From Halobacteriovorax sp. GB3 (GTDB taxonomy: Bacteria; Bdellovibrionota; Bacteriovoracia; Bacteriovoracales; Bacteriovoracaceae), in NCBI RefSeq assembly GCF_028649655.1, contig NZ_JAQSLN010000003.1, positions 744,001 to 808,000 of the forward strand: a stretch of 64,000 bases of DNA, in the 5' to 3' direction. Shown piece after piece: positions 11,965 to 25,483 of the stretch. Both the position numbers and the translations under genes were made by a program. The number at the start of each line of letters is the position of its first letter. The stretch's first letter is position 1. Under the pieces are notes generated by a model. It was not told the origin of the DNA and did not search any database. It saw nothing but the letters and a program-made list of their open reading frames with translations.

Positions 11965-12963
11965 TCAATTGAGATTCTTTCCCTTAATCATATTCATCAC
12001 CTTAGTTTTACGATCTTGATCGAGCTCTCTTACCGTCCAATAATCCACATGAGAAAGTGGATCTTGTAAATTAAATCGAATTGACCAAATAGGTTTGATT
12101 TCATTGGGTACGAGTGAGTAGCGCAAATCACCAATCTCGCCCTCTTTCCATTCAAAGAGAAATTCGTCGCTAAAGAAATTAAATCTTTTCAGATCATGAA
12201 ACTGCTTATTGCTAACGATTTCTTTTTTAGACTCTATATCTAGGGCCTTGACACTCTCACCCGCATAAAATGTAATGTCCCCACTCCAAGAAACACGAAG
12301 AGCATCGACAAAGAACTCTTCACCACTCTTATAGACACTTCTCCATAAAATATTATTGAAGGCCGTTGGCTTAACAATCATTTTTGAGATTGTATGAGAA
12401 CGTGATTTTGCAATCTTTTCAATATAGTTTTTGGCGCGCATTTGTTGGATCTTTCCAAATCCAATATAGATTATGAAAAAAGAAAGACCAATAGCAGAGT
12501 AACGACGCTTTCTAAGCTTCAGGCCCAAAAGACAAAGAATAAGAAAAGGCATTGTCGCTAAAGGATCAATCACAGCAACGATATTCCACGCCTCTCTAGC
12601 ATTTGAAAAAGGCCACAATAAATGTGTTCCATAATTAGTACAAGCGTCAAGAAGACCATGGGTTGCATAACCTAAGAAACAAAAAAGATAAGTACTTTTA
12701 AAACTTAGCTTTGATTTCTTTTTAAAAATAAAATGAAGGAGTACAGCGACAATTAAAGCGCCAAAGGGAATGAAGGCCAAGGAATGCGTTATTTGTCTGT
12801 GATACTCAAGAGTGAAAAGAGGATCAGTTTTAGAGCGAATAATATAATCAAGATCAGGGGCCATTCCAGCAAGAGCGCCAAAGAAGCTTGCCCAAACAAT
12901 GTGCTTTTTAAAATAAGATTGACCGACGCTAGCGCCTAAGACGGCCTGAGTAACTGGATCCAT
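11965..12963 (-). CDS. YdjM-type membrane-bound metal-dependent hydrolase
   Basis: A 332-residue inner-membrane protein of the LexA-binding, YdjM-like family. Hallmarks are the N-terminal MDPVTQAVLGA, GMAPDLDYI with the metal-binding Asp pair near residue 35, YHRQITHSL near residue 54 with conserved His residues, and ATHGLLDACTNYGT near residue 103. Four or five membrane helices are followed by a soluble C-terminal domain (about residues 190-330). The family is believed to be a phospholipase-C-like hydrolase. The true reaction is not established. SD AGAGG before the ATG. It converges on the esterase gene. Confidence 0.82.
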   Translation of the reverse strand: MDPVTQAVLGASVGQSYFKKHIVWASFFGALAGMAPDLDYIIRSKTDPLFTLEYHRQITHSLAFIPFGALIVAVLLHFIFKKKSKLSFKSTYLFCFLGYATHGLLDACTNYGTHLLWPFSNAREAWNIVAVIDPLATMPFLILCLLGLKLRKRRYSAIGLSFFIIYIGFGKIQQMRAKNYIEKIAKSRSHTISKMIVKPTAFNNILWRSVYKSGEEFFVDALRVSWSGDITFYAGESVKALDIESKKEIVSNKQFHDLKRFNFFSDEFLFEWKEGEIGDLRYSLVPNEIKPIWSIRFNLQDPLSHVDYWTVRELDQDRKTKVMNMIKGKNLN

Positions 12964-13324: not shown

Positions 13325-14653
13325 ATGTTCTGCAATACAAAAAACTCTCTGTTCGTTGGTTTATGTGTAACGTTTTTACTCGCTTCATGTAATCAGCAAG
13401 AATTTTATGAAAAAGAATTTCTCGATGGTGCGGCCATTGATAAGCCGAGTACAGAACTACCTTCTGGTGAAGTTTCAAATCCAGACAATGGTGATGGAAA
13501 TGGTACTGTAACGACTCCAGGTAATGGAGGCGGAGATAACTCAACGACAACTCCAGATGATAATGATGATGGAGATAGCTCAACAACGAATCCGGATAAT
13601 GGTGGTGGTGATAACACAACGACTAATCCAGATAACGGGGGTGGAGATAATGGATCAACAGACCCTGATGATGGTGACGATAACACGACAACTAATCCAG
13701 ATAATGGTGGTGGTGATAACGGTACAACTGAGCCAGATGATGGTGGTGATAATTCAACAACTGACCCTGATGAAGGCGAAGATAACAATGGCCCAAGCTA
13801 TGACATCATTACAAATAACTTTGTTCAAAATATTGAAGAACAAGGAAAAGTAGACATTCTATGGGTTGTTGATGACTCAGGTTCTATGAGTGATGAACAA
13901 AACAGCCTAGCAAGAAATTTTGAGATGTTCATTGGAGAATTCATCCAAAAGGATGTTGATTTTAAAATGGCCATCACAACAACAGATGCGACAAGTAGAC
14001 AAAATGGAAAATGGAACTGTAATCCAGATCTACTAGATAAACAATCAGCTGATAAGAGTGAGTCAAAATTTATTCGTGACTTCCAAAGATGTATTAAAGT
14101 TGGAACGAGAGGAAGTGGATACGAAAAAGGACTACACACAGCTGAATCATTCTTTAAAAGATACGAGACACCATCAAACAAAACGTTTTTAAGAGAAGAT
14201 GCCTTCTTAGTGATTGTTTTTGTCTCAGATGAAGAAGATCAGTCTAAAAAAGCATCAGATGACTACTTAAACTTTTACCGTTCACTTAAAAAAGATGAAG
14301 GGAAACTAAAAGTCTTCTCTATTGTCACAAAAGAAAAAGTGAATAGATGGGAAACGGTTGGACATAGATACCTTAACGTATCTGAAAAAACAGGTGGTTC
14401 AACAGCTGATATAAAAGAAGATTTCTACTATGTATTAAGAGATATGGGTGGAAAGATTGTTGATTTACTCGACAAATTCGCCCTAGCAAGAATACCTGCA
14501 ACAAGTGACATTGAAGTCAAAGTTAACGGAACGATCCAAACAGAAGGATATGAACTTGATCAACAAACAGGTTCAGTATCATTTCTCTCAGGATATGTAC
14601 CAGAGCAAGGAGCTCAAATTGAGATTACGTATAAAGTATTAAAGGATAATTAA
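13325..14653 (+). CDS. VWA-domain outer-membrane lipoprotein, CglB-like candidate adhesin
   Basis: A 442-residue lipoprotein. Signal peptide ends in lipobox LASC with the acylated Cys at residue 22. Residues about 45-160 are an Asp/Asn/Gly/Thr-rich repeat spacer. A von Willebrand A domain follows, with metal-ion-dependent adhesion motif D183-x-S185-x-S187 (VVDDSGSMS), a Thr loop (TTTDAT) and VSDEED as the third MIDAS loop. The C-terminal 60 residues are beta-rich. First gene of a ten-gene operon whose other products resemble the Myxococcus gliding machine. There the VWA lipoprotein CglB is the surface adhesin coupled to the motor. That functional equivalence is inference. A general VWA lipoprotein is the alternative. 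Confidence 0.85.
   Translation: MFCNTKNSLFVGLCVTFLLASCNQQEFYEKEFLDGAAIDKPSTELPSGEVSNPDNGDGNGTVTTPGNGGGDNSTTTPDDNDDGDSSTTNPDNGGGDNTTTNPDNGGGDNGSTDPDDGDDNTTTNPDNGGGDNGTTEPDDGGDNSTTDPDEGEDNNGPSYDIITNNFVQNIEEQGKVDILWVVDDSGSMSDEQNSLARNFEMFIGEFIQKDVDFKMAITTTDATSRQNGKWNCNPDLLDKQSADKSESKFIRDFQRCIKVGTRGSGYEKGLHTAESFFKRYETPSNKTFLREDAFLVIVFVSDEEDQSKKASDDYLNFYRSLKKDEGKLKVFSIVTKEKVNRWETVGHRYLNVSEKTGGSTADIKEDFYYVLRDMGGKIVDLLDKFALARIPATSDIEVKVNGTIQTEGYELDQQTGSVSFLSGYVPEQGAQIEITYKVLKDN
13460..13800 (+). repeat. In-gene low-complexity repeats encoding an Asp/Asn/Gly/Thr spacer
   Basis: About eight tandem degenerate units of 11-15 codons with the theme PDNGGGDN then TTT or STT. The nucleotide units (for example AATCCAGATAATGGTGG) are near-identical, so unit number may vary by slippage between strains. 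The spacer would be highly acidic and flexible, and the D/N-G-D pattern could bind calcium. It separates the lipid anchor from the VWA head. Confidence 0.8.
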
Positions 14654-14655
14654 TC

Positions 14656-15372
14656 ATGGCAAAGAAAGTATCGACCTTCCTTCTTCTCACCATTTTTAAT
14701 GCCATGACACTTGGAGAGGTTAAGGCAGAGGAAAAAGACTTGTATAAGTTCCTCTGGCTTGACCCTGACAAGTCAGTTTACGTCTTGCAAAACAAGATGT
14801 TTCCTAAGAGAGGTACTACTTACATGGAGTTGGGGTACCTCTCTCATTTATCAGCGGAGTACCAAGATACGACAGGTGCTTCACTCAAGGTCGGTCACTT
14901 TCTTAACGAACAATGGGCCATCGAGCTTATGTTTAGAAAATACTCTAACTCTGATAACGATGCCCTAACAAGTATTAGAGAAATAAACCAAACTGTACCA
15001 TTTGTGAGAAGACCACTTCAATCAACTTCTCTACTAGCAAAATGGTCTCCTTTCTATGGAAAGATCAATACATTCAATAAGATTTTCTATTTTGACTGGC
15101 ACTTTGCAGCTGGACCAAGTCTTATTGAGACAGAAAGTAATGCAAAAACAGTCGCAGACCCTAATAGTGATACTCGCTACGATAGCGAATCGACAATAGG
15201 TGCCACTGTTAAAACAGGAGTTCGCTTTCACTTAAATAAAAATTGGCAAATCAATATAGATTACGTCAAAGATTTCTATCAAGCACCTGGTGTACTCGTT
15301 GATGGAGTACAAAGACCAGATAAGTGGAGAAATCAAAGTGACGTTATCTTTTCTATTGGTTTTTCATTCTAA
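14656..15372 (+). CDS. Outer-membrane beta-barrel protein (myxobacterial-type gliding/OMP family)
   Basis: A 238-residue exported protein. Signal peptide cleaves near VKAEEKD. The mature part alternates polar and hydrophobic residues and ends with a terminal aromatic strand (VIFSIGFSF), the outer-membrane insertion signal. The start of the mature chain (YKFLWLDPDKSVYVLQNKMF, then PKRGTTYMELGY) recalls the OMP_myx_plus family, which includes barrels of the Myxococcus Glt/CglE set (recollection). It begins 2 bp after the VWA lipoprotein stop, so the two are tightly coupled. Likely the outer-membrane partner of the motor complex. Confidence 0.8.
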   Translation: MAKKVSTFLLLTIFNAMTLGEVKAEEKDLYKFLWLDPDKSVYVLQNKMFPKRGTTYMELGYLSHLSAEYQDTTGASLKVGHFLNEQWAIELMFRKYSNSDNDALTSIREINQTVPFVRRPLQSTSLLAKWSPFYGKINTFNKIFYFDWHFAAGPSLIETESNAKTVADPNSDTRYDSESTIGATVKTGVRFHLNKNWQINIDYVKDFYQAPGVLVDGVQRPDKWRNQSDVIFSIGFSF

Positions 15373-15391
15373 TTGAACGTGGAAGTTGAAA

Positions 15392-16822
15392 ATGAAATAT
15401 ACGATCTTATTCCTCACATTCATAGCACTACAAAGCCAGGCCAGCTATTTAAAGGCGAAGAAGATATATTCTAGTGATTTCTCTAAAGAGAGAGAGCTAA
15501 AAATCTTTAAAGAGCTTTTTCAATCACGCTATTATCATGCTGCTGCGACCTTCCTTAGCGACTATATAGAAAAAGGTGAACAAGTACCTGAAGAACTTAC
15601 TGAATGGGTTGATACACTTGTAATAAAGACAGGTCATGAGGTTTTTGATTCTGTTAGTCCAAAGGACTTAGTGCGACAGAATTCTTGGGCCTTAAAATTT
15701 GTAGCAGCAAATAATCTTTTCAAAAATAATAATTACAATGGAGCAATCCGAGCAATACAAGGATATCCGAAAGATCATAAATTCGCTTCTGAGGCCTATT
15801 TAACGCTTGGCCTCTCTTATGCAAACTTGAGAAATATCGTGAAATCAAATACGCAGCTCGATCTTTGTAGCGAGGTTGCAAATACGTTTGCAAAAGAAGC
15901 TAAGAATGAAAGAATTAAGCGTTATTACACGATACTTTCAGAAAAATGTATTATCAATAAAGGTAGAAATTATTTTTTAGAAAAAAGTTATAAAAAGGCC
16001 CTTGCACAGTACAATTTAATTCCAAAGACTTCATACACATGGCCGTATAACTTAATGGAAATGGCCTGGTCACATTTCTACCTTGAAGATTACAATAGAG
16101 TTCTTGGACTACTGATTACATACAAGTCCCCTCTTATGACAAGCTACTTCTTTCCAGAAGCAGAGTACTTGAGTGCAATTAGTTACTTGAAAATGTGTCT
16201 CTATGATGACTCATCTATTGTTATCGACAAATATACAAATCATTACAAAACAAGAACAAAAGAATTAAAAAAACTCCTTACACAACATAGTAAATCGGAA
16301 ACATATTTTTTGAAACTTGCTCTCACTGATTTAAAAAAATCTGACAAGGTTCACCCATTTATTAGAAATCTCATAACACAGATAAGAAAGAGAATTCGTT
16401 ACTCTCTTGATGTTATCAATCTCAAGAGATCGATTCTCGAATTGAATGTCATTAAAAAGAATAAAAATGATCGTTTCCAACAAGAGTTAGGACAAAGAGT
16501 AAATTCACTCATTAATTGGAAAAGAAGAAAACTTAATCACTTTGTGAAAAGAGAAATGTTTACTTTCATCAATCAAATCCACAGATTTAGCTACGAGCTC
16601 TTTAACGTTTCACTAGAGGTTATTAGTAACAAGAAAGATCTTCTCTACAGAGGTCAAAAGCTGAGTGCAAATCGTGAAAGAGGTAGCTTAGATAATGTTA
16701 AAAGAGAAGAGCTTCAACATTTTTGGTCATTCAAAGGTGCTTTTTGGGCAGACGAACTTGGTGACTACTCTTTTGGACTGAAATCAAATTGCAAAGTTCA
16801 AAAAATGGAGAAGAACTCATGA
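15392..16822 (+). CDS. Exported TPR-like repeat protein
   Basis: A 476-residue protein with a signal peptide (cleavage near SQAS) and helical repeats in the first 290 residues, for example NNYNGAIRAIQGYP, SYKKALAQYNLIP and DYNRVLGLL, spaced like TPR units. A lysine-rich helical segment follows (about 330-430). The ATG at 15392 is preceded by GGAAG at 15381-15385. A TTG at 15386 would only add two residues. The stop overlaps the next ATG (ATGA). Periplasmic TPR proteins are structural parts of the Glt envelope complex. That role is inferred from context. Confidence 0.75.
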   Translation: MKYTILFLTFIALQSQASYLKAKKIYSSDFSKERELKIFKELFQSRYYHAAATFLSDYIEKGEQVPEELTEWVDTLVIKTGHEVFDSVSPKDLVRQNSWALKFVAANNLFKNNNYNGAIRAIQGYPKDHKFASEAYLTLGLSYANLRNIVKSNTQLDLCSEVANTFAKEAKNERIKRYYTILSEKCIINKGRNYFLEKSYKKALAQYNLIPKTSYTWPYNLMEMAWSHFYLEDYNRVLGLLITYKSPLMTSYFFPEAEYLSAISYLKMCLYDDSSIVIDKYTNHYKTRTKELKKLLTQHSKSETYFLKLALTDLKKSDKVHPFIRNLITQIRKRIRYSLDVINLKRSILELNVIKKNKNDRFQQELGQRVNSLINWKRRKLNHFVKREMFTFINQIHRFSYELFNVSLEVISNKKDLLYRGQKLSANRERGSLDNVKREELQHFWSFKGAFWADELGDYSFGLKSNCKVQKMEKNS

Positions 16823-17073
16823 AAATGGCCATCATATCAACAATGCTCTTTCTCTTTTTTAGAGTTGCTATCGCAGATGCTAAAGACAACGTCATTATTA
16901 AATATAAGAAATATGACGAAATTGATCTCGGTAATCTCGAAATTAAAGGAAAGCTCCTAGCTCCAGGAGATCTCTCAGTACAAGAGAGAGACAGAGTTAA
17001 ATTTTCAAGAAAACTATACTTAAGAGATGACTATTTAAAAGAACAAATTAAAGAAGTCTATTACTTGCGTTAA
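16819..17073 (+). CDS. Small exported protein of the gliding-like operon (CglF-like candidate)
   Basis: An 84-residue protein with a signal peptide (ending near IADAKD) and a short charged mature part that includes LEIKGKLLAPGDLSVQERDR. The ATG overlaps the upstream stop, indicating coupling, and GGAGAAG precedes it. Its size, export and position between the barrel/TPR genes and the TolQ-like motor gene recall the small exported CglF of Myxococcus. The match is by context and size, and sequence similarity could not be tested. Confidence 0.6.
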   Translation: MKMAIISTMLFLFFRVAIADAKDNVIIKYKKYDEIDLGNLEIKGKLLAPGDLSVQERDRVKFSRKLYLRDDYLKEQIKEVYYLR

Positions 17074-17097
17074 TCGCAAGATTCATGGGGGGAAGAC

Positions 17098-17766
17098 ATG
17101 GAAAATGAAATCGCACAAGCAGCAACTGAACCAGGTTTTTTACAAGCACTCGCTACATTCATGGACGAAGGAGGGATCTTCATGTGGATTATCTTCTTCG
17201 TATGGACAATGGGGCTTGCCATTTCAGTAGAACGATTTAAATCACTTATTAGCTATGACTTAGACGGTAGTAAACTCATGGCCCTAATTAGAACGAACGT
17301 TTTAAATAACAATGTAAAAGATGCTATTGGCGCATGTTCAAATTCGAATGCACTTTTACCACAAGTACTAAGATCAGGGCTTAAAAGAGCGAATCAGGAG
17401 AAAGAGCAGATAAAGGATGCTATTGATGCGACAATCATGGAAGTCGCACCTAGAGTAGAAAAAAGAATGAATTATCTTGCTCTCGTTGCAAATATCTCTA
17501 CTCTCGTAGGTCTTCTTGGAACAATTTATGGTCTTATTCAATCATTTGCAGCCGTTGCAGGTGCCGATCCATCGATGAAAGCGAAACTTTTGGCCCTTGG
17601 TATTTCCAAGGCCATGAATACAACAGCACTTGGTTTGATTTCGGCCATTTCAATTCTTGTCATTCACTCATTTCTTACAAGTAAGGGTGAAAAAATTCTC
17701 AACGATCTCGAAGAGTATTCTATTAAGATCATTGACCTTCTTGGAACACAAAGAAAGGCCTCTTAA
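17098..17766 (+). CDS. TolQ/ExbB/MotA-family proton channel subunit (AglR-like)
   Basis: A 222-residue inner-membrane protein with three helices: about residues 25-45, 125-150 and 170-195. The TolQ/ExbB signature is clear, with NISTLVGLLGTIYGLIQSF in helix 2 and ISKAMNTTALGLISAIS in helix 3, including the conserved Thr residues of the proton path. It pairs with two TolR-like genes immediately downstream, the same one-to-two arrangement as AglR with AglQ and AglS in the Myxococcus gliding motor. SD GGGGGAAG upstream of the ATG. Generic Tol-Pal or TonB motors are less likely given the neighbours. Confidence 0.88.
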   Translation: MENEIAQAATEPGFLQALATFMDEGGIFMWIIFFVWTMGLAISVERFKSLISYDLDGSKLMALIRTNVLNNNVKDAIGACSNSNALLPQVLRSGLKRANQEKEQIKDAIDATIMEVAPRVEKRMNYLALVANISTLVGLLGTIYGLIQSFAAVAGADPSMKAKLLALGISKAMNTTALGLISAISILVIHSFLTSKGEKILNDLEEYSIKIIDLLGTQRKAS

Positions 17767-17790
17767 TTGAGATAAAGTGGTGGAGTCTCT

Positions 17791-18261
17791 ATGAAAAGAA
17801 GAATGAAACAGCCAGAAAAATTAAATTTAATTCCGATTTTAGATGCCGTTTTTATCTTTATTTTCTTTCTCTTAATGTCGGCACAATTTGTTCAAATTCA
17901 TGAAATAAGAACAGACCGCCCACTTGTTAAAGATGTATCAGAGAAAAAAGATAAGACGCCACCACTGAATTTAACGTTAAAAGTGACTCAAGCGCAAATT
18001 AAGGTGATTACAGGTCTCGAAGAGAAAGTTGTTAAGCAATTCAATATTAATAAAGAAGATTCAAAATACTTAGATGATTTAAATAAGCTTCTTGGACAGA
18101 TAAAAACGAAGCATCCCAAAGAGACAACAATCATAATTAAACCTGACCGTCGTGTTAAATATGCTCAAATCATAAAAATCGTCGATCACAGTAAATGGCT
18201 TGTCGCGGAGAACTCAATCAACCAAGAACTTTTTAGCAATGTTATTTTTGAATCAAATTAA
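17791..18261 (+). CDS. TolR/ExbD-family motor subunit, first copy (AglQ/AglS-like)
   Basis: A 156-residue protein with a short basic N-terminus, one membrane helix containing the proton-accepting Asp (LIPILDAVFIF, residue about 18) and a periplasmic domain ending in the usual beta-alpha fold (TIIIKPDRRVKYAQIIKIVD). It forms the stator with the upstream TolQ-like subunit, converting proton flow to movement of the periplasmic domain. It starts 24 bp after the TolQ-like gene and 11 bp before a second, diverged copy. Confidence 0.86.
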   Translation: MKRRMKQPEKLNLIPILDAVFIFIFFLLMSAQFVQIHEIRTDRPLVKDVSEKKDKTPPLNLTLKVTQAQIKVITGLEEKVVKQFNINKEDSKYLDDLNKLLGQIKTKHPKETTIIIKPDRRVKYAQIIKIVDHSKWLVAENSINQELFSNVIFESN

Positions 18262-18272
18262 TAGAGGCAATG

Positions 18273-18794
18273 ATGAGAAGAACAAAGAAAAGATATACTA
18301 GAGAGAGAAAAGAGATGGAAGTAGACATTACTTCCCTACTCGACATTCTCGTTATTCTCTTAGTTTTTCTTTTAAAAAGTTACAACCCATCTGATTTGAA
18401 ACTTGATGTTGTGAAAGACCTTAGTTTAGCAAAATCACATGCAAAAGACTTAGGAAATAAGACGGTCATTATCCAGGTTGATAAAAAGAACAACATTTTT
18501 ATCAACAATAAAGAGACAACAAATCTTGTAAAAAAATCAGCTTGGAGATCTGAGCTAACATCAGAACTAAAAAAGATATCAGATAAAAACAAAAGAGAAA
18601 TTGCACAAATTAAAACGAATGATTTTAGTTCAATGAGAAAGGAATTAATCAAAAAGAAAGAAGAAACGATGGAGAGGGTAAATATTGTTTTACATGAAGA
18701 CCTTCCCTACGAAACTCTAGATAAAGTTATGCAAGTTGCCGCTAATTCTGGATTCCACAAATTCAGCTTTATCGTGCAATCAAAACTGAACTAA
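18273..18794 (+). CDS. TolR/ExbD-family motor subunit, second copy (AglQ/AglS-like)
   Basis: A 173-residue protein with one helix holding the essential Asp (ITSLLDILVILLVFL, residue about 24) and a periplasmic domain with a lysine-rich insertion (about residues 95-135) before the terminal LPYETLDKVMQVAANSGF. It differs clearly from the first copy, so the motor probably contains two non-identical TolR subunits. Two ATGs stand side by side. The second, at 18273, is better spaced from GAGG at 18264-18267. Confidence 0.86.
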   Translation: MRRTKKRYTRERKEMEVDITSLLDILVILLVFLLKSYNPSDLKLDVVKDLSLAKSHAKDLGNKTVIIQVDKKNNIFINNKETTNLVKKSAWRSELTSELKKISDKNKREIAQIKTNDFSSMRKELIKKKEETMERVNIVLHEDLPYETLDKVMQVAANSGFHKFSFIVQSKLN

Positions 18795-18803
18795 GAGGTA
18801 GAA

Positions 18804-21638
18804 ATGAAAAGCTTATTCATCACCATGATGATTTTAATGACTTCATTAAGCTTTTCAATGGATGAAAAGAATAAAAGGATATGGAATCTCCTACTTAAAG
18901 AAGAAAAAACAATCAAGTCTCTTGGTCGTCTCGATACAGGATTAAGATATCGTCTACTGGAGATCGAATCTGAAAAACTACGTATTATACGTGATAGAGA
19001 AAATGAAAAAGTATTGAAAACGGGAAAACGTACAAAAGGTTACTATAAAGAGACCCGCGCGAGAGCAGTAAGAATACAAAAAATGGCAAAGGCCATCATC
19101 ACTAAAAACCCATACTTCGTTCATATACCTGATATTTACTACACTCTAGGTATGAACTCACGCGACCTTGGAAAACACAAGCAAAGTGCATTTTATCTGA
19201 ATAAGGCCCTTAAACTTTCAAAAGGAAAAGGTGCTCTACTCTATAAAATCCACGTAGCTCTTGGTGAGTACTACTACAATAATAAGAAATTTAAGCGTGC
19301 AATATGGCATTATAAGTATGTCATCAATAATATGGCCGACGAATGGACAACAAAGAACTATTATAACTATGCATGGTGTCTTCTACTGAATAAAAATATT
19401 CATGAAGGAATTGATGCTCTCATGAAAACATATGAATTATCAGTTGATCGTAGATATATTGATGTCTCATCTCAAGTTCTTGATAGTGCTGCAAGCTTCT
19501 TTGTAAAAGGACATCGTATTGAAGAAGCTCTCAACTTTTATAAGAAAAATGCACCTAAAGAAAGTGAATATTTCATTAAGCTTGCCAAGAAAACAAATAC
19601 GAGTATTGGTGTTAAAAAAGCTAACGAAGTTTACACTTTTGCTATTAATCATTTTCAAGACATTGGTGAGATCAATGAAAGAATCAATGTGGAAATGGAT
19701 CAAGTTTCATATCACTTAGAAACAAAAGAATACGCCAATTTTGAATCACTCTCGGAAAAGCTAATTAAAGAACAAAAGATTCTCTCACAAGAACAAAAGA
19801 AAGAACTAACTGAGCTTCTGACACAAAGAGCTGGATACCTACAAACAGTCATTTCTAAAAATGGTATCTATGAATATAAGCAAAGTGATCTAATAAGTAT
19901 CAATAAACTCTTTTCCCTTTTAAGAGAAGTCAATCCAACACTTACGCATAAGTATTACTTCTTAGAAGGTGAAACACACTATGGTCTTAAAATGTATAAA
20001 GAGGCCTTAAAAAGATATACGAATTCACTAAAGGCCACAAAGAAGACAAAAGTAGAAGAGAAGTTTAAAAAAGACCTCTACACATCACTTCTTGCCTCAA
20101 TTAACGAAGGGCAATTTAAGAAAAAAGAAAAAAATCATTACCTGATTTATGCTTATACAAACTTCTTATTGGATTTTCCTGCAAAGAAAGAGAGTCCACT
20201 TATATATAAAGATCTTTTTAGAATTTACCTCGAGAAAAAGAGTTTCAAAAAGGCCGACAAGATCATCACGATCTATAACAAAAACTTAAAAAAGGACCTT
20301 AAGATTCAAAGAGAACTCTTTAAGAATTTATTAAGTCAACTTTTAAAAGAAAAGAATGTTTCTTTATTAACAACACATGTAAATCGCATTAGAAGTGGAC
20401 ATTTAAGCTTTGATCAAAAATATTTAAACAAAGTCACAATGGCCCTAGGTCACCTTCTCTTTTCTCAATATGATCTTCTAGCAACATCGGGGAAATTTCA
20501 AGATGCTGAAAAAGGTTATACAAAAGTATATAGTTCAAAAGTCTTACCCAATGTACTGAAAGGAATCAGTGCTCATAACCTCTCGATTCTCAATATGAAA
20601 AGAGATCGTAGTCTTGATGCTTGGAACTGGCATTTCCAAGCATCAAAACTTTTAGGAGCTAAAGAGATCAATGAGAGAGAAGAGAACTTTGCTTTACTTG
20701 CTCAATCTTTTTTTGACAGAGAAAATTATAAATTATCAGAGAATATGGCCTCATGGTATTTCTCTAAGTTCTGTCTTAGTAAGAAGAAAATTAAAAATGA
20801 TGTTTATTCGACATTATTAATTTCTCAACATTTTAATAGCAAAAACAGGGACATCAAAAACCATCTAGCAAAAGGTAGCTTCTGTCGCATTAAAGAGAAA
20901 ACGATTAAAGATGGTCTCTTTTTTATAGCAAGAAATACTTTTCTTTTTAACAAAGAAGAGCTTTTAAAAATAACTCTTATGTCAGGAAAGAAATATCGAG
21001 ATATATTCTCTCCACTCATTGAAGATCTTGCCTCTCATTATGAGAATGCATACGACTTTGATAAAGCTCTTTCTTACTCAAAATTTCTTTCAGAAAAATC
21101 GATCCAACGTATCTTTGCTAAGAAACAAAAATCAGAAAACCTAAATGAACTAGAAGGTGAACTTAAGAAATTTCAATTAAGAGACTGGGGTTCAAAGAAG
21201 TTTGAAGAAGTCGCCTTTAACAACTGGCTTGAATATAATATGCATACACTTGAAAAGAGTATGATAAAGTATGATTCATTTTTGGGGTCTCTAAATGCCA
21301 GTCAAGCACTTCGTTTCAATCAAACATATGATCTCGTCTTTAAAAATGAAGCAAAGAAACTAACAAATCTCACTTTAAAAGGTCTCTCACCTAAAGAAGA
21401 GGCCATGGTAAAGAGAGAGCTCGTTAAGATTCAAGCACAGGTTCTTTCGAGATTGGAAGCAAAAACAAAGAAAATTTATCAATCATATAAGAAGTCGAAT
21501 CCTTTGGATTACAACAATTTCTCTTCTTCCAAGCTGAGAGAAGTTGTTGATTTCCAGAGGTTTCCACATTTTAGTCACCACTTGGCCGGTGCAATCGACC
21601 AAGGGTGGCTAAATATTATCAAAGGAGATAAAAAATGA
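18804..21638 (+). CDS. Giant exported TPR protein (944 residues) of the gliding-like operon
   Basis: Signal peptide (cleavage near LSFSMDE) followed by helical repeats along most of the length. TPR-like units are visible around residues 110-190 (HKQSAFYLNKALKLSKG, KRAIWHYKYVINNM), 390-420 (MYKEALKRYTNSLKATK) and 590-640. Very lysine-rich and without enzyme motifs. It fits a periplasmic scaffold like the large TPR proteins of the Glt complex (AgmK/GltI type). Function inferred from context. SD AGAGG 5-6 nt upstream. Its stop overlaps the next start by 4 nt. Confidence 0.8.
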   Translation: MKSLFITMMILMTSLSFSMDEKNKRIWNLLLKEEKTIKSLGRLDTGLRYRLLEIESEKLRIIRDRENEKVLKTGKRTKGYYKETRARAVRIQKMAKAIITKNPYFVHIPDIYYTLGMNSRDLGKHKQSAFYLNKALKLSKGKGALLYKIHVALGEYYYNNKKFKRAIWHYKYVINNMADEWTTKNYYNYAWCLLLNKNIHEGIDALMKTYELSVDRRYIDVSSQVLDSAASFFVKGHRIEEALNFYKKNAPKESEYFIKLAKKTNTSIGVKKANEVYTFAINHFQDIGEINERINVEMDQVSYHLETKEYANFESLSEKLIKEQKILSQEQKKELTELLTQRAGYLQTVISKNGIYEYKQSDLISINKLFSLLREVNPTLTHKYYFLEGETHYGLKMYKEALKRYTNSLKATKKTKVEEKFKKDLYTSLLASINEGQFKKKEKNHYLIYAYTNFLLDFPAKKESPLIYKDLFRIYLEKKSFKKADKIITIYNKNLKKDLKIQRELFKNLLSQLLKEKNVSLLTTHVNRIRSGHLSFDQKYLNKVTMALGHLLFSQYDLLATSGKFQDAEKGYTKVYSSKVLPNVLKGISAHNLSILNMKRDRSLDAWNWHFQASKLLGAKEINEREENFALLAQSFFDRENYKLSENMASWYFSKFCLSKKKIKNDVYSTLLISQHFNSKNRDIKNHLAKGSFCRIKEKTIKDGLFFIARNTFLFNKEELLKITLMSGKKYRDIFSPLIEDLASHYENAYDFDKALSYSKFLSEKSIQRIFAKKQKSENLNELEGELKKFQLRDWGSKKFEEVAFNNWLEYNMHTLEKSMIKYDSFLGSLNASQALRFNQTYDLVFKNEAKKLTNLTLKGLSPKEEAMVKRELVKIQAQVLSRLEAKTKKIYQSYKKSNPLDYNNFSSSKLREVVDFQRFPHFSHHLAGAIDQGWLNIIKGDKK

Positions 21639-22480
21639 AAGTCCTTCATACACTTCTCTTTCTTATTTTTGTCTCATGTGCTCGATCACCCTTAAAAGTG
21701 TACACAAGTGCTAGTAAGGAATCTGTTTTTCATAAAGATGGTCTTTGGAAAATCTCATCAGAAAAAGTAGAAATCCTTCTTGAGTCGCAAGAGGAACTTC
21801 ACGTCAGAGCACTACTGATGTGTCACGAGCAAAAAACAGATGAAGCATTGTCTCTCATTTTTGAAAACTTTAAGTCAACTTCAAAAGATAATGAAATTTA
21901 CAATATCATCTCAGTTTGTCACATTTTGAACAAGGACTATGAAAAGGCACTTCTAGCCGTAGAAAAAGGTTTGGCCTTAGAAAGAAAAAATAAGAAGCTT
22001 CTCTTAAAGTTAAAGCACAACAAAGCGCTTATCTTCCATAAAATTGGACACTTCAATGAAGCGAGAACTCTTTATACAGAAGTGTTAGAAAAAGCACCTA
22101 ATCTTTATACGACATCTTTCAATTTAGGTTTACTCTATCTTCAATTTAATCTCACTCAAGAGGCCCTTGCTCAACTAGAGCCTCTTATGAATATTGCACC
22201 AAAAGACATTGATCTTTTAAGTTCAATTGCTCTTATTCATGCCCTTGAAGGACGTTACAACAAGGCCCTCTCCCTTTTCGAGCTGATCGACATGGATAGT
22301 CGACAGAGGGAGGATATCGCACTTTACTACGCGGTATCCCTTGTAGGGGCCAAGAGATTTGAAGAGGCAAAAGTTGTATTAAAAAATCAAAATGTTCCCT
22401 TTATCAAAGAAATTAGACTCATGAGTCGCAAATTACAAGATATGGTGGACACTAAACTTCAAACAATAGCATCGAAATAA
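21635..22480 (+). CDS. TPR lipoprotein (AglT/GltE-like)
   Basis: A 281-residue lipoprotein: signal peptide with lipobox FVSC, acylated Cys at residue 15. Residues about 55-260 form TPR repeats with canonical A/G-x-Y-A spacing (HFNEARTLYTEVLEKAPN, ALIHALEGRYNKALSLFELI). Overlaps the giant TPR gene by 4 nt and precedes the FHA gene by 13 bp. AglT/GltE in Myxococcus is an outer-membrane TPR lipoprotein of the gliding complex, which this resembles in domain type and operon position. Confidence 0.8.
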   Translation: MKVLHTLLFLIFVSCARSPLKVYTSASKESVFHKDGLWKISSEKVEILLESQEELHVRALLMCHEQKTDEALSLIFENFKSTSKDNEIYNIISVCHILNKDYEKALLAVEKGLALERKNKKLLLKLKHNKALIFHKIGHFNEARTLYTEVLEKAPNLYTTSFNLGLLYLQFNLTQEALAQLEPLMNIAPKDIDLLSSIALIHALEGRYNKALSLFELIDMDSRQREDIALYYAVSLVGAKRFEEAKVVLKNQNVPFIKEIRLMSRKLQDMVDTKLQTIASK

Positions 22481-22493
22481 AAGGGATATCGTC

Positions 22494-24314
22494 ATGTTAG
22501 CAACAAAACTCGACACTATCACTCTCTATCGCATCGTTGTTTACAAGGAAGGATGTGAAGAGCTCTCATTCAAGGTAGACAGAGACCGAGCTATTATTGG
22601 TAGTGCAAAATCATGTGATTTTATAATTGAAGATCAATTCGTGTCTCATTATCACGCAATGATTGAACATTGCGATGATGGAATCAATGTTAAAGACCTC
22701 GGTAGTATAAATGGGATTTTAATCAATGGAAAGAAGACAGAGCAAGGATTCGCTCTTCCAGGAGATATCATTGAAATTGGTCCAAATAAATTTCTTGTTG
22801 AACAATTTGAATCTGATGAAAGTGGCTTCACTAAGATAGATGAAAAAACAAAACAATATCACAAGAAATCAATCAATGACCTACCTCCTCTACCTCCTAA
22901 GGAAGGTCTCGAAGTTATTGATGGAGAATATTGTGATATCAAATTTGATCAAAACCTCTATCGCCCAACGGACACACTACTTTTTGAAGCAATCGCTCTA
23001 GATGACTACATCAATTTTGATGAAAGAAACGATGCGACTGGAATTATTAAAGCGAACTCAACTGGCCAATCTCTTGAAGTTACAATTACATCAATGGGTG
23101 TGGCCCTAAGTGTTGACTATGTATCTCTTAAGAATAAGTCCATTCAACTAAGTGGAAATTTCGATACACAAAAAGAGATTTACCTACCTATTCTGGAACA
23201 GAATCAAACTCTTGAACTTGCAAGCGTGAAAGACAAAAATATTTCTCTCAATGAACTAGAAGGCTTCACACGACTCATTAGTGGTGATTTTAACATCTAT
23301 ACAAAAGGTACAGTTCAAATATTTGTTCGTATTTCAAATCATCCACCGACACTAAAAATGGCCGACCTTATTGAGAGAGATCCTAACTTCTATAAACAAA
23401 CAGGTTCAGTTTTTGGTGGATTCATGGCCTTGATGCTGCTGATTCTTTTTGTCGATACACCAGAACCTCCAAAACCAGAAAAAAAGAGAACAGTTATTTT
23501 TAAACAAACAGTTGTTAAAGGACCAACAGTTACAGAGAAGGCCTCACAAAATCCTGCGAATATAAACAAAGACCAAGGTATTCAAAAGAAGCAAATCTCC
23601 AATGAAGCACCAAAGATGGCAAAAGCAAAGTCACTCCCATCAAAAACGAAGACTGTTCAAAAGAAAGTCCAAGCACCAAGTAAGAGTGTTGCAAAAAAAG
23701 TTCAAAAGAAAAAATTTAATTTTAAAGTTGCTAAAGGTGTAACAAAGTTCCTTAAAAAGAAAGTAAACTTTAAACTTGATCCATCACAAAGTACAAACAA
23801 CACTTCAAGCTCGTCATTAAAAGTTGCTGCAGCATCCAGTGCTAAAAGTGCAAATAAAAGTTTCTCTACTCAAATTAGTGATGGAAGCTCAAATCTTGGA
23901 AGTAATTCAATTGGAAATGCAGCTCTATCAGCTGGAGCAAAAGGGCTTGCAGCAAAGAGTGGAATCAACACGGCCTACTCTGCACCAAAAACTGTCGTTC
24001 TTGGATCTATTGACCCAGAACTCCTTAGAAAGATTCTAAGAGAATACTTACCTCAATTTCACTACTGCTATCAAAATGAACTCGATACAAAGCAAGACTT
24101 GATCAAAGGCGTAATCGACTTAAAGTTTAGAATCAATGGAAGTGGAAAGGTATCAAATATCGATATTGCCTCTAAGAAAACGGCATTTTCAAGAAAGGGT
24201 GTTAACTGTATGGCCCAAGTTCTCAAGATGATCGATTTTCCAAGACCAAAAGGTGGAGGAATTGTCGATGTTAAACAACCACTTAATTTTCAATCTGAAA
24301 GAAGTAGAATTTAA
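22494..24314 (+). CDS. FHA-domain protein with TonB-like (AgmX/PglI) C-terminus, GltG-like
   Basis: A 606-residue inner-membrane bridging protein. FHA domain at about residues 15-105 with GSAKSCDF, FVSHYHA and SINGILINGK, the phospho-threonine-binding loops. A beta-rich cytoplasmic segment follows, then one helix (about 303-320), a Lys/Pro/Ser-rich periplasmic stalk (about 325-490) and a terminal TonB-like domain (about 500-600) with HYCYQNEL, LKFRINGSGKV and VNCMAQVLKMIDFPRPKGGG, the AgmX/PglI C-terminal pattern with its Cys pair. In Myxococcus, GltG and GltJ with this architecture link motor to envelope. FHA input suggests control by a Ser/Thr kinase. Last gene of the operon. Confidence 0.85.
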   Translation: MLATKLDTITLYRIVVYKEGCEELSFKVDRDRAIIGSAKSCDFIIEDQFVSHYHAMIEHCDDGINVKDLGSINGILINGKKTEQGFALPGDIIEIGPNKFLVEQFESDESGFTKIDEKTKQYHKKSINDLPPLPPKEGLEVIDGEYCDIKFDQNLYRPTDTLLFEAIALDDYINFDERNDATGIIKANSTGQSLEVTITSMGVALSVDYVSLKNKSIQLSGNFDTQKEIYLPILEQNQTLELASVKDKNISLNELEGFTRLISGDFNIYTKGTVQIFVRISNHPPTLKMADLIERDPNFYKQTGSVFGGFMALMLLILFVDTPEPPKPEKKRTVIFKQTVVKGPTVTEKASQNPANINKDQGIQKKQISNEAPKMAKAKSLPSKTKTVQKKVQAPSKSVAKKVQKKKFNFKVAKGVTKFLKKKVNFKLDPSQSTNNTSSSSLKVAAASSAKSANKSFSTQISDGSSNLGSNSIGNAALSAGAKGLAAKSGINTAYSAPKTVVLGSIDPELLRKILREYLPQFHYCYQNELDTKQDLIKGVIDLKFRINGSGKVSNIDIASKKTAFSRKGVNCMAQVLKMIDFPRPKGGGIVDVKQPLNFQSERSRI

Positions 24315-24319
24315 TAAAA

Positions 24320-25483
24320 CTAAATGAGCTTATGAATACGCTTTAAAAGTTGGGGGTTCTTTTGAACCTCCTGCTTCATTTTAGCGATCCCATAAATAAC
24401 AGATGAATGATCCCTATTGAAAACTTCTGCAATCCTCATGACATTTAGTCCATTCTTTTCTTTAAGAATATACATGGCCACATGCCTAGCGAAAGTAACA
24501 GATTTCTTTCTCATAGGAGAAGTAAGAAGGTCACGATCTATAGCAAAGTCACGAGCGACTCGAGAGATAATTTTTTGACAATTATCATTTCGATCGAGAA
24601 CTCTCCCTAAACTCTTTAACTCATTGAGCGCCGTTTCAAGAGTGATAGGCTCACCATAGACATCATAAAAACTTTTAAGCTTATAAAGAGCACTCTCAAG
24701 TCCATAGACGTGAAAGTCAAAACTATCGGCCACGAGGTCTTTAGCGTCATCGGAAATGACCATATCAAGTCTCTCACACTTATCTTCAACAATTTGACGC
24801 GAGAGCTTTCTATCGAGACGATCAATTTTGTGAATAAGTGTACTAGAGAGTCTGGCCTTTAATTTATCGCAAACATTAGAAATATGTTTTGGAAGATGAT
24901 TTGCACAAATAATAACTTTGATTTCACCCATCTTTGCATAATCAATTAAACGACATAGCATACTTTGCTGCTTCTCGCCTAAAGTAATTTCATCAAAGTC
25001 ATCAATAAGAAGAACATCATAACTCAAAAGCTCATTGATAGACTTGAAATGGTCTAGAATTAAATCAATTGAAGAAATATAAAATGACTTACCCTGCTGC
25101 ATTAATTCATTTCCAGCAGCATGAAGAAGGTGTGACTTACCAAGGCCACTCATGGCCATGATATAGACCACACCATATTCGCATTTGCCTTCAGTTAAAA
25201 ACTGTCTAACAGCATGACAAGCAAGCCTATTAGATTCCCCCAGACAAAAGCTATTGAAAGTTTTTGAATGATCAACAAGACCACAGAAGCGATCCATTTG
25301 CGCGGACGGATTCACCTTAGAAGTGCGAGGGTACTTCTTACGTACAACCTTGCGCTTCTTCTCTCCAACAATTGTTGGTACGACTGTCTCTGATATATAA
25401 CTCAAAAGATCAAGCTGAACCATTTCGGTTTTCACTTGTTTGACATCAGATTTCCTTATCCCTACGGCTTTTGTTTTTCCCAT
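24320..25483 (-). CDS. DnaA paralogue lacking domain I
   Basis: A 387-residue DnaA-family AAA+ protein. Seen: a basic N-terminal tail instead of the usual domain I; Walker A MSGLGKSHLLHA near residue 110; Walker B VLLIDDFDE near 156; box VII with a candidate arginine finger in DKLKARLSS near 207; and a full C-terminal DNA-binding domain with FNRDHSSVIYG near 364 (DnaA signature, usually RDHTTV). The sensor II region reads HVYGLESAL, lacking the usual Arg. Normal DnaA is about 450 residues and lies beside dnaN, so this is probably a second, specialised copy that binds DnaA-box-like DNA. It converges on the gliding-like operon with 5 bp between stops. Confidence 0.85.
   Translation of the reverse strand: MGKTKAVGIRKSDVKQVKTEMVQLDLLSYISETVVPTIVGEKKRKVVRKKYPRTSKVNPSAQMDRFCGLVDHSKTFNSFCLGESNRLACHAVRQFLTEGKCEYGVVYIMAMSGLGKSHLLHAAGNELMQQGKSFYISSIDLILDHFKSINELLSYDVLLIDDFDEITLGEKQQSMLCRLIDYAKMGEIKVIICANHLPKHISNVCDKLKARLSSTLIHKIDRLDRKLSRQIVEDKCERLDMVISDDAKDLVADSFDFHVYGLESALYKLKSFYDVYGEPITLETALNELKSLGRVLDRNDNCQKIISRVARDFAIDRDLLTSPMRKKSVTFARHVAMYILKEKNGLNVMRIAEVFNRDHSSVIYGIAKMKQEVQKNPQLLKRIHKLI

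Follow-up and report, generated by a model that had tools for sequence, protein, structure and literature searches.

Gliding machineries of the Agl/Glt type have been described in Myxococcus xanthus, and clusters of this type have been annotated in Bdellovibrio bacteriovorus. In the M. xanthus model, CglB is retained by Glt (PMC13104615). The four Agl/Glt clusters of B. bacteriovorus HD100 were presented as tonB/agl operons in 2010 (PMC2797640) and as expanded core complexes in 2011. Bd1483 was placed in a gliding cluster in 2008 (PMC2277423), and bd3099, a VWA gene, is listed among the HD100 gliding gene clusters (PMC9140294). The HD100 clusters as gliding operons and, as a general idea, the presence of VWA genes in gliding loci are already known. 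The present study concerns a ten-gene operon of Halobacteriovorax sp. GB3, which lies in a stretch of 64,000 nucleotides (contig NZ_JAQSLN010000003.1, positions 744,001 to 808,000), referred to here as the window. The operon joins Agl/Glt motor and envelope genes to one VWA lipoprotein with an intact metal ion-dependent adhesion site (MIDAS). Its product is probably a trans-envelope motor driven by the proton-motive force; this motor would pull on, or cluster, an integrin-like adhesin held on a tether, and so provide surface traction for gliding, prey contact or both.

The original prediction, made from the letters of the DNA, described one compact plus-strand operon. It was found that ten open reading frames (ORFs) of the ORF list do run head to tail at 13325-24314, all on the plus strand and each at the position first given. 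With the CglF gene taken to start at the ATG at 16819 or 16825, the gaps between genes are of -4 to +24 bases. As called, from the TTG at 16789, this ORF overlaps the GltC gene by 34 bases; both ATGs have GGAGAAG upstream, and one of them is the likelier true start. The same ten genes occur in exactly the same order in 17 of 36 genomes of the same family, and hence the arrangement is not due to chance.

A TolQ-like motor gene and two TolR-like ones had been proposed, and PF01618 is indeed matched once and PF02472 twice, with the channel residues intact. The TolQ/MotA-ExbB-type motor ring protein (17098-17766; 222 residues; PF01618, 3e-27) is AglR-like, and its channel-lining T142 and T176 are kept in 75 of 75 homologues. 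The first TolR-like protein (17791-18261; PF02472, 5e-14) occupies the AglQ slot and carries the transmembrane D18, a position that is Asp in all 58 homologues outside the Bd1473-type clade. The second (18270-18794; PF02472, 1e-14) stands in the AglS slot with the transmembrane D25, which is Asp in 70 of 70 homologues.

The outer-membrane barrel of the original prediction was also recovered, as a GltA/GltB-like protein (14656-15372) that matches OMP_myx_plus above its cut-off (TIGR04565, 9e-31) and has eight strands in the AlphaFold2 model (predicted local distance difference test, pLDDT, 88). It is followed by a GltC-like exported protein of 478 residues (15386-16822; NF033756 gliding_GltC, 6.8e-28); the match spans residues 117-470 and falls under the equivalog cut-off, which makes it a homologue and not an equivalog. 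The same reading applies to most of the NCBIfam matches in the operon, OMP_myx_plus and NF033768 being above their cut-offs. The small exported CglF/GltF-like protein (16819-17073; NF033764 gliding_CglF, 3.5e-4) occupies the identical slot in relatives. After the motor genes come a GltD-like periplasmic TPR protein of 944 residues (18804-21638; TPR_2, 1e-7) and a GltE-like TPR lipoprotein of 281 residues with the lipobox FVSC (21635-22480), which has TPR matches and a weak match to the GltE model (0.005). Profiles of the GltD and GltE families retrieve, from the Bd0828-type cluster, its large TPR protein (3e-47) and its GltE counterpart (4e-20) respectively, and the names GltD and GltE were given because of this homology and of position relative to the Bd0828-type cluster. 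The last gene (22494-24314; NF033760, 2e-32) encodes GltG, with an N-terminal FHA domain (Pfam, 7.5e-12), one transmembrane helix (about 308-326), a linker and a C-terminal AgmX/PglI domain (NF033768, 7e-17). It had been taken for an FHA/TonB-C bridge; the FHA part stands, and the TonB-C part has to be replaced by the GltG/AgmX-PglI domain, a Pfam scan of the C-terminus having given no TonB_C match.

The first gene of the operon (13325-14653) encodes a putative surface lipoprotein of 442 residues with the lipobox LASC22, which matches NF052240 (MIDASAdhsBdello, 8e-19) and CglD (2e-6). A Pfam search gave zero significant VWA match for it and a sequence search against the PDB gave no meaningful match; the VWA/MIDAS assignment was made because of the NF052240 match, a confident VWA domain in the AlphaFold2 model and an intact MIDAS. 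The MIDAS residues are D183-S185-S187, T220 and D302. The triad is present in 130 of the 130 aligned homologues that have letters there, and D302 in 130 of 132. In the model, the signal and lipobox at the start are followed by a disordered tether from about residue 23 to about 155 (about 130 residues), rich in Asp, Gly, Asn and Thr, and pLDDT exceeds 90 from about 160 to about 440. The VWA domain sits within a small beta domain built from N- and C-terminal strands, in agreement with the description of Bd0875 and Bd1483 as a MIDAS fold set into a small beta domain (PMC11003981). The closest PDB folds of the model are integrin beta headpieces (probability 1.00, template-modelling score about 0.3), a predicted likeness that is modest and one of domain arrangement. 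At the level of family, the protein fails membership of both adhesin models that it matches, with 68 bits against a cut-off of 700 for NF052240 and 25.9 bits against 400 for CglD. Bd0875 itself reaches 730.7 bits on NF052240, as scored on the standalone VWA gene of a genome that we take to be B. bacteriovorus HD100, and the window protein belongs to a separate clade. No CglB model stands among its NCBIfam matches to E 0.05, and whether such a model exists was not checked. The proposed CglB-type VWA adhesin is thus borne out as a VWA lipoprotein with an intact MIDAS, and the likeness to CglB is not: CglB as parent family is unsupported, MIDASAdhsBdello and CglD being the sole adhesin models matched, both far under their cut-offs.

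The original prediction would have failed if the VWA gene were not linked to the motor genes in relatives. A VWA homologue (E < 1e-20) is present in 24 of the 36 same-family genomes and abuts Glt genes in 22 of these 24. As a rough null, random placement in a 3.4 Mb genome with a reach of 12 kb of a cluster would bring a VWA gene near one in about 1.4% of genomes. The linkage is in excess of chance, and the relatedness of the genomes makes a binomial p-value meaningless. Halobacteriovorax marinus (L131) is among the named carriers of the operon, as are several metagenome-assembled genomes (MAGs) of Bacteriovoracaceae. Judged by eye, the VWA proteins form clades parallel to the linked cluster types.

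Variant loci were also seen. L075 and L134 lack the window-type motor; after GltE they have another TolQ/TolR pair and a short, FHA-less GltG, and they retain VWA, barrel, GltC, CglF, GltD and GltE. Because these two loci swap the motor and keep the outer genes, the outer part appears to be separable from the motor. One genome (L090/L219) has VWA-OMP-GltC-CglF-GltD-GltE with no motor gene between CglF and GltD, and its GltG lies on another contig. Three Myxococcota-type MAGs (L178, L196, L153) have VWA proteins of about 1000 residues near OMP/GltC genes, divergent from a Glt cluster in L178, and a Pseudomonadota MAG (L202) has TolQ, TolR and two tandem VWA proteins.

Probably, an inner-membrane TolQ-TolR-TolR proton motor drives GltG, whose FHA domain would be cytoplasmic and whose C-terminal domain would be periplasmic. 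Force would then pass from GltG through the periplasmic TPR proteins GltD and GltE, GltC and CglF to the eight-stranded barrel, and the outer-membrane module would hold, expose or drag the VWA lipoprotein. This protein would act as an integrin-like MIDAS adhesin, gripping a surface or another cell at the end of its flexible tether of about 130 residues, and the outcome may be surface traction, as gliding or as a pull against prey. We infer such a motor-adhesin traction unit because of phenotypes reported for B. bacteriovorus. Insertions in Bd1481 (aglR) and in Bd1483, which from its position is the VWA gene of the Bd1473-1483 cluster, both reduce biofilm predation (PMC2277423). Bd1480 (aglQ) is surface-induced and its expression is lower in non-gliding bd0367 mutants (PMC9140294). 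An insertion in Bd0838 (aglS) leads to an attachment defect (PMC6561027).

The genes could have been those of a Tol-Pal or TonB-type nutrient or envelope system mistaken for gliding genes, as the motor proteins match the tolQ and exbB models and the HD100 clusters were earlier named 'tonB-like' (PMC2797640). We regard this as very improbable. On the tolQ model, whose cut-off is 221 bits, the operon's TolQ reaches 70 and the Tol-Pal-type TolQ of the genome 215. The latter lies in a separate locus (L001) with TolR, a TolA-like protein with a TonB_2 domain and a beta-propeller TolB-like protein; an ExbB-ExbD pair occurs at L002. The operon has no TonB-dependent receptor, TolB or Pal, and four other products match Glt/Cgl/OMP_myx models (GltC, CglF, GltG and OMP_myx_plus). 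A Tol-Pal/TonB identity is refuted at the sequence level. By homology, the Agl/Glt core of Group B of Luciano 2011 (GltC, GltD, GltE, GltG and AglR/Q/S) is entirely present, as are the Myxococcus-type small GltF/CglF protein and a GltA/B barrel, here a single one. Homology thus assigns the operon to the Agl/Glt family, as had been predicted.

Within this family the machine may have another job. It is possible, though we hold it to be less probable than not, that its role is prey contact and not gliding, with the VWA adhesin clustered or tensioned where the cell meets its prey, as it attaches or enters. The aglS (Bd0838) insertion mutant attaches poorly (PMC6561027), Bd0875, a VWA relative, acts at the invasion interface (PMC11003981), and the family includes Halobacteriovorax. 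On the other hand, the VWA-linked HD100 cluster that has been characterised is induced on surfaces, and invasion of prey is normal in its VWA mutant; nor do gliding and prey traction have to be separate. Sequence does not decide between gliding and prey attachment. It is unlikely that the operon serves Glt/Nfs-like transport, in which a surface polysaccharide or coat is moved or anchored and the VWA protein binds a polymer rather than a foreign surface. Such a role has a model in the M. xanthus Agl-Nfs machinery, which rotates a carbohydrate polymer on the spore surface (PMC3858216), but neither the operon nor the examined flanking genes gave any polysaccharide gene, and the gene attached to the motor encodes a MIDAS adhesin.

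Several points weigh against a motor that pulls a dedicated adhesin. The role in Bacteriovoracaceae is read from genes, and the mutant phenotypes, which would apply by analogy, come from B. bacteriovorus, where the delta-bd1483 strain of HD100 invades prey normally with no predation defect (PMC11003981). Approximately unbiased (AU) tests disfavour the joining of the window motor with that of Bd0828 (p-AU 0.044) or with one Myxococcus AglRQS motor (p-AU 0.009), and orthology to either is disfavoured on the same values; the alternative sister, the Bd1473 type, has a support of just 41/6. GltH, GltI, GltJ and GltK have no counterpart among the ten operon genes, the rest of the genome not having been searched for each; according to Luciano 2011 they are also absent from Bdellovibrio, which glides. 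Two relatives (L100 and L108) keep the window-type cluster without an upstream VWA. Finally, the genome itself has a second Agl/Glt cluster (L003, contig G000:C2, about 38.9-49.3 kb), with all the core genes and a motor that is sister to the window type (supports 100/99 and 95/84, within a 100/100 clade). Its genes run OMP-GltC-GltD-GltE-CglF-GltG, unlike those of the window operon, its motor genes lie on the other strand, and no VWA gene was found in the 20-kb stretch examined. In L003 the machinery is thus present with no VWA gene linked to it, which suggests that a motor of this kind does not strictly require the adhesin. To call the operon 'self-contained', as had been done, is also an overstatement: it has one barrel where the Bd0828 type has two, no GltH/I/J/K counterparts inside, and MglA-type polarity factors encoded elsewhere. 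An MglA-like GTPase gene adjoins a Roadblock-domain MglB-like gene and recR at L210; it has been published that mglB is lost in B. bacteriovorus and that B. marinus has a divergent copy.

A 2026 review describes the motor behind Bdellovibrio gliding, its adhesins and the path of force as unidentified and as a major open challenge (PMC13104615). With a complete Agl/Glt motor and one MIDAS lipoprotein combined in a fixed operon, motor and adhesin are named at once. New are the ten-gene form conserved in Bacteriovoracaceae, the linkage of VWA genes to clusters of different types, and the connection between two literatures, on Agl/Glt 'gliding' operons and on predator MIDAS adhesins. No published statement of the VWA-Agl/Glt linkage was found in a literature search that covered few subscription journals or preprints. 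The operon is a candidate for the gliding and prey-gripping machine of Bdellovibrio-like predators. A single VWA gene of this family was detected in the whole genome, so that deletion of one gene would test the role of the adhesin. We give about even weight to a wider rule for Bdellovibrionota, by which most Agl/Glt operons would include an integrin-like VWA lipoprotein that belongs to their motor and has evolved separately. Each machine would then be specialised for traction on a particular kind of surface, and the Bacteriovoracaceae operon would be the most compact complete form, its VWA protein the adhesin of a gliding or prey-gripping engine. The rule is based on a VWA gene in three of the four HD100 clusters and in one of the two clusters of the window genome.

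Upstream of the operon lies a YdjM-like gene on the minus strand (11965-12963). Downstream, a minus-strand gene for a DnaA-like protein of 387 residues with ATPase and C-terminal helix-turn-helix domains (24320-25483) converges on the operon end. A plus-strand terminator-like hairpin 3' of gltG (24352-24371; 8 pairs, 5 of them GC, with a T-rich tail) is a consensus match only, and its class is not above background, 8 such sites being seen against 6.2 expected from shuffles. A promoter scan was uninformative (26 sites against 36 expected from shuffles), and an Rfam search of the window gave zero matches.

The compact VWA-bearing arrangement is not unique: HD100 has three VWA-linked Agl/Glt clusters, and these were annotated as gliding operons in 2008-2011. 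HD100 locus tags were assigned through coordinates and literature and not from annotation. The VWA gene is first in Bd1473-1483 and last in the Bd2368 and Bd0412 clusters. Bd1473-Bd1483 (L112) resembles the window operon in having the VWA gene first, TolQ, two TolR, a large TPR protein, GltG, a barrel and GltC on one strand, but gene order differs, an extra ORF of 206 residues stands between VWA and TolQ, and its GltG (488 residues) is shorter and matches the C-terminal part of the GltG model only. Its VWA belongs to a different clade. Where the first TolR of the window keeps the channel Asp, that of the Bd1473-type clusters, Bd1480 in HD100, has Ala in 11 of 11 (L112, L115-L120, L167, L195, L206, L207) and the second TolR keeps Asp; the Bd1473-type motor would thus be asymmetric, with one proton-binding TolR. 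Bd0828-Bd0838 (L111) shares the full-length FHA-bearing GltG, GltC, GltD, GltE, a barrel and TolQ-TolR-TolR, but has two barrels, the motor genes last and no VWA gene inside, Bd0875 lying about 40 kb off; as noted, a joint clade of the two motors is disfavoured. M. xanthus has AglRQS, GltC, GltD, GltE, GltF/CglF, GltG and a GltA/B-type barrel, and VWA adhesins serve its machine. Its genes are spread over clusters G1, G2 and M1 with CglB and CglD encoded elsewhere (PMC3169522, PMC4488436), its GltH/I/J/K were not found in the window operon, and the CglD model spans about 1124 positions against about 440 residues in the window VWA. The vWA force transducers of Planctomycetota-Verrucomicrobiota-Chlamydiota (PVC) bacteria and proteobacteria are likewise encoded beside TolQ/TolR-like motors (PMC12204202); those proteins are tethered to the inner membrane, whereas the VWA protein of the operon is a lipoprotein whose long tether is predicted to be disordered.

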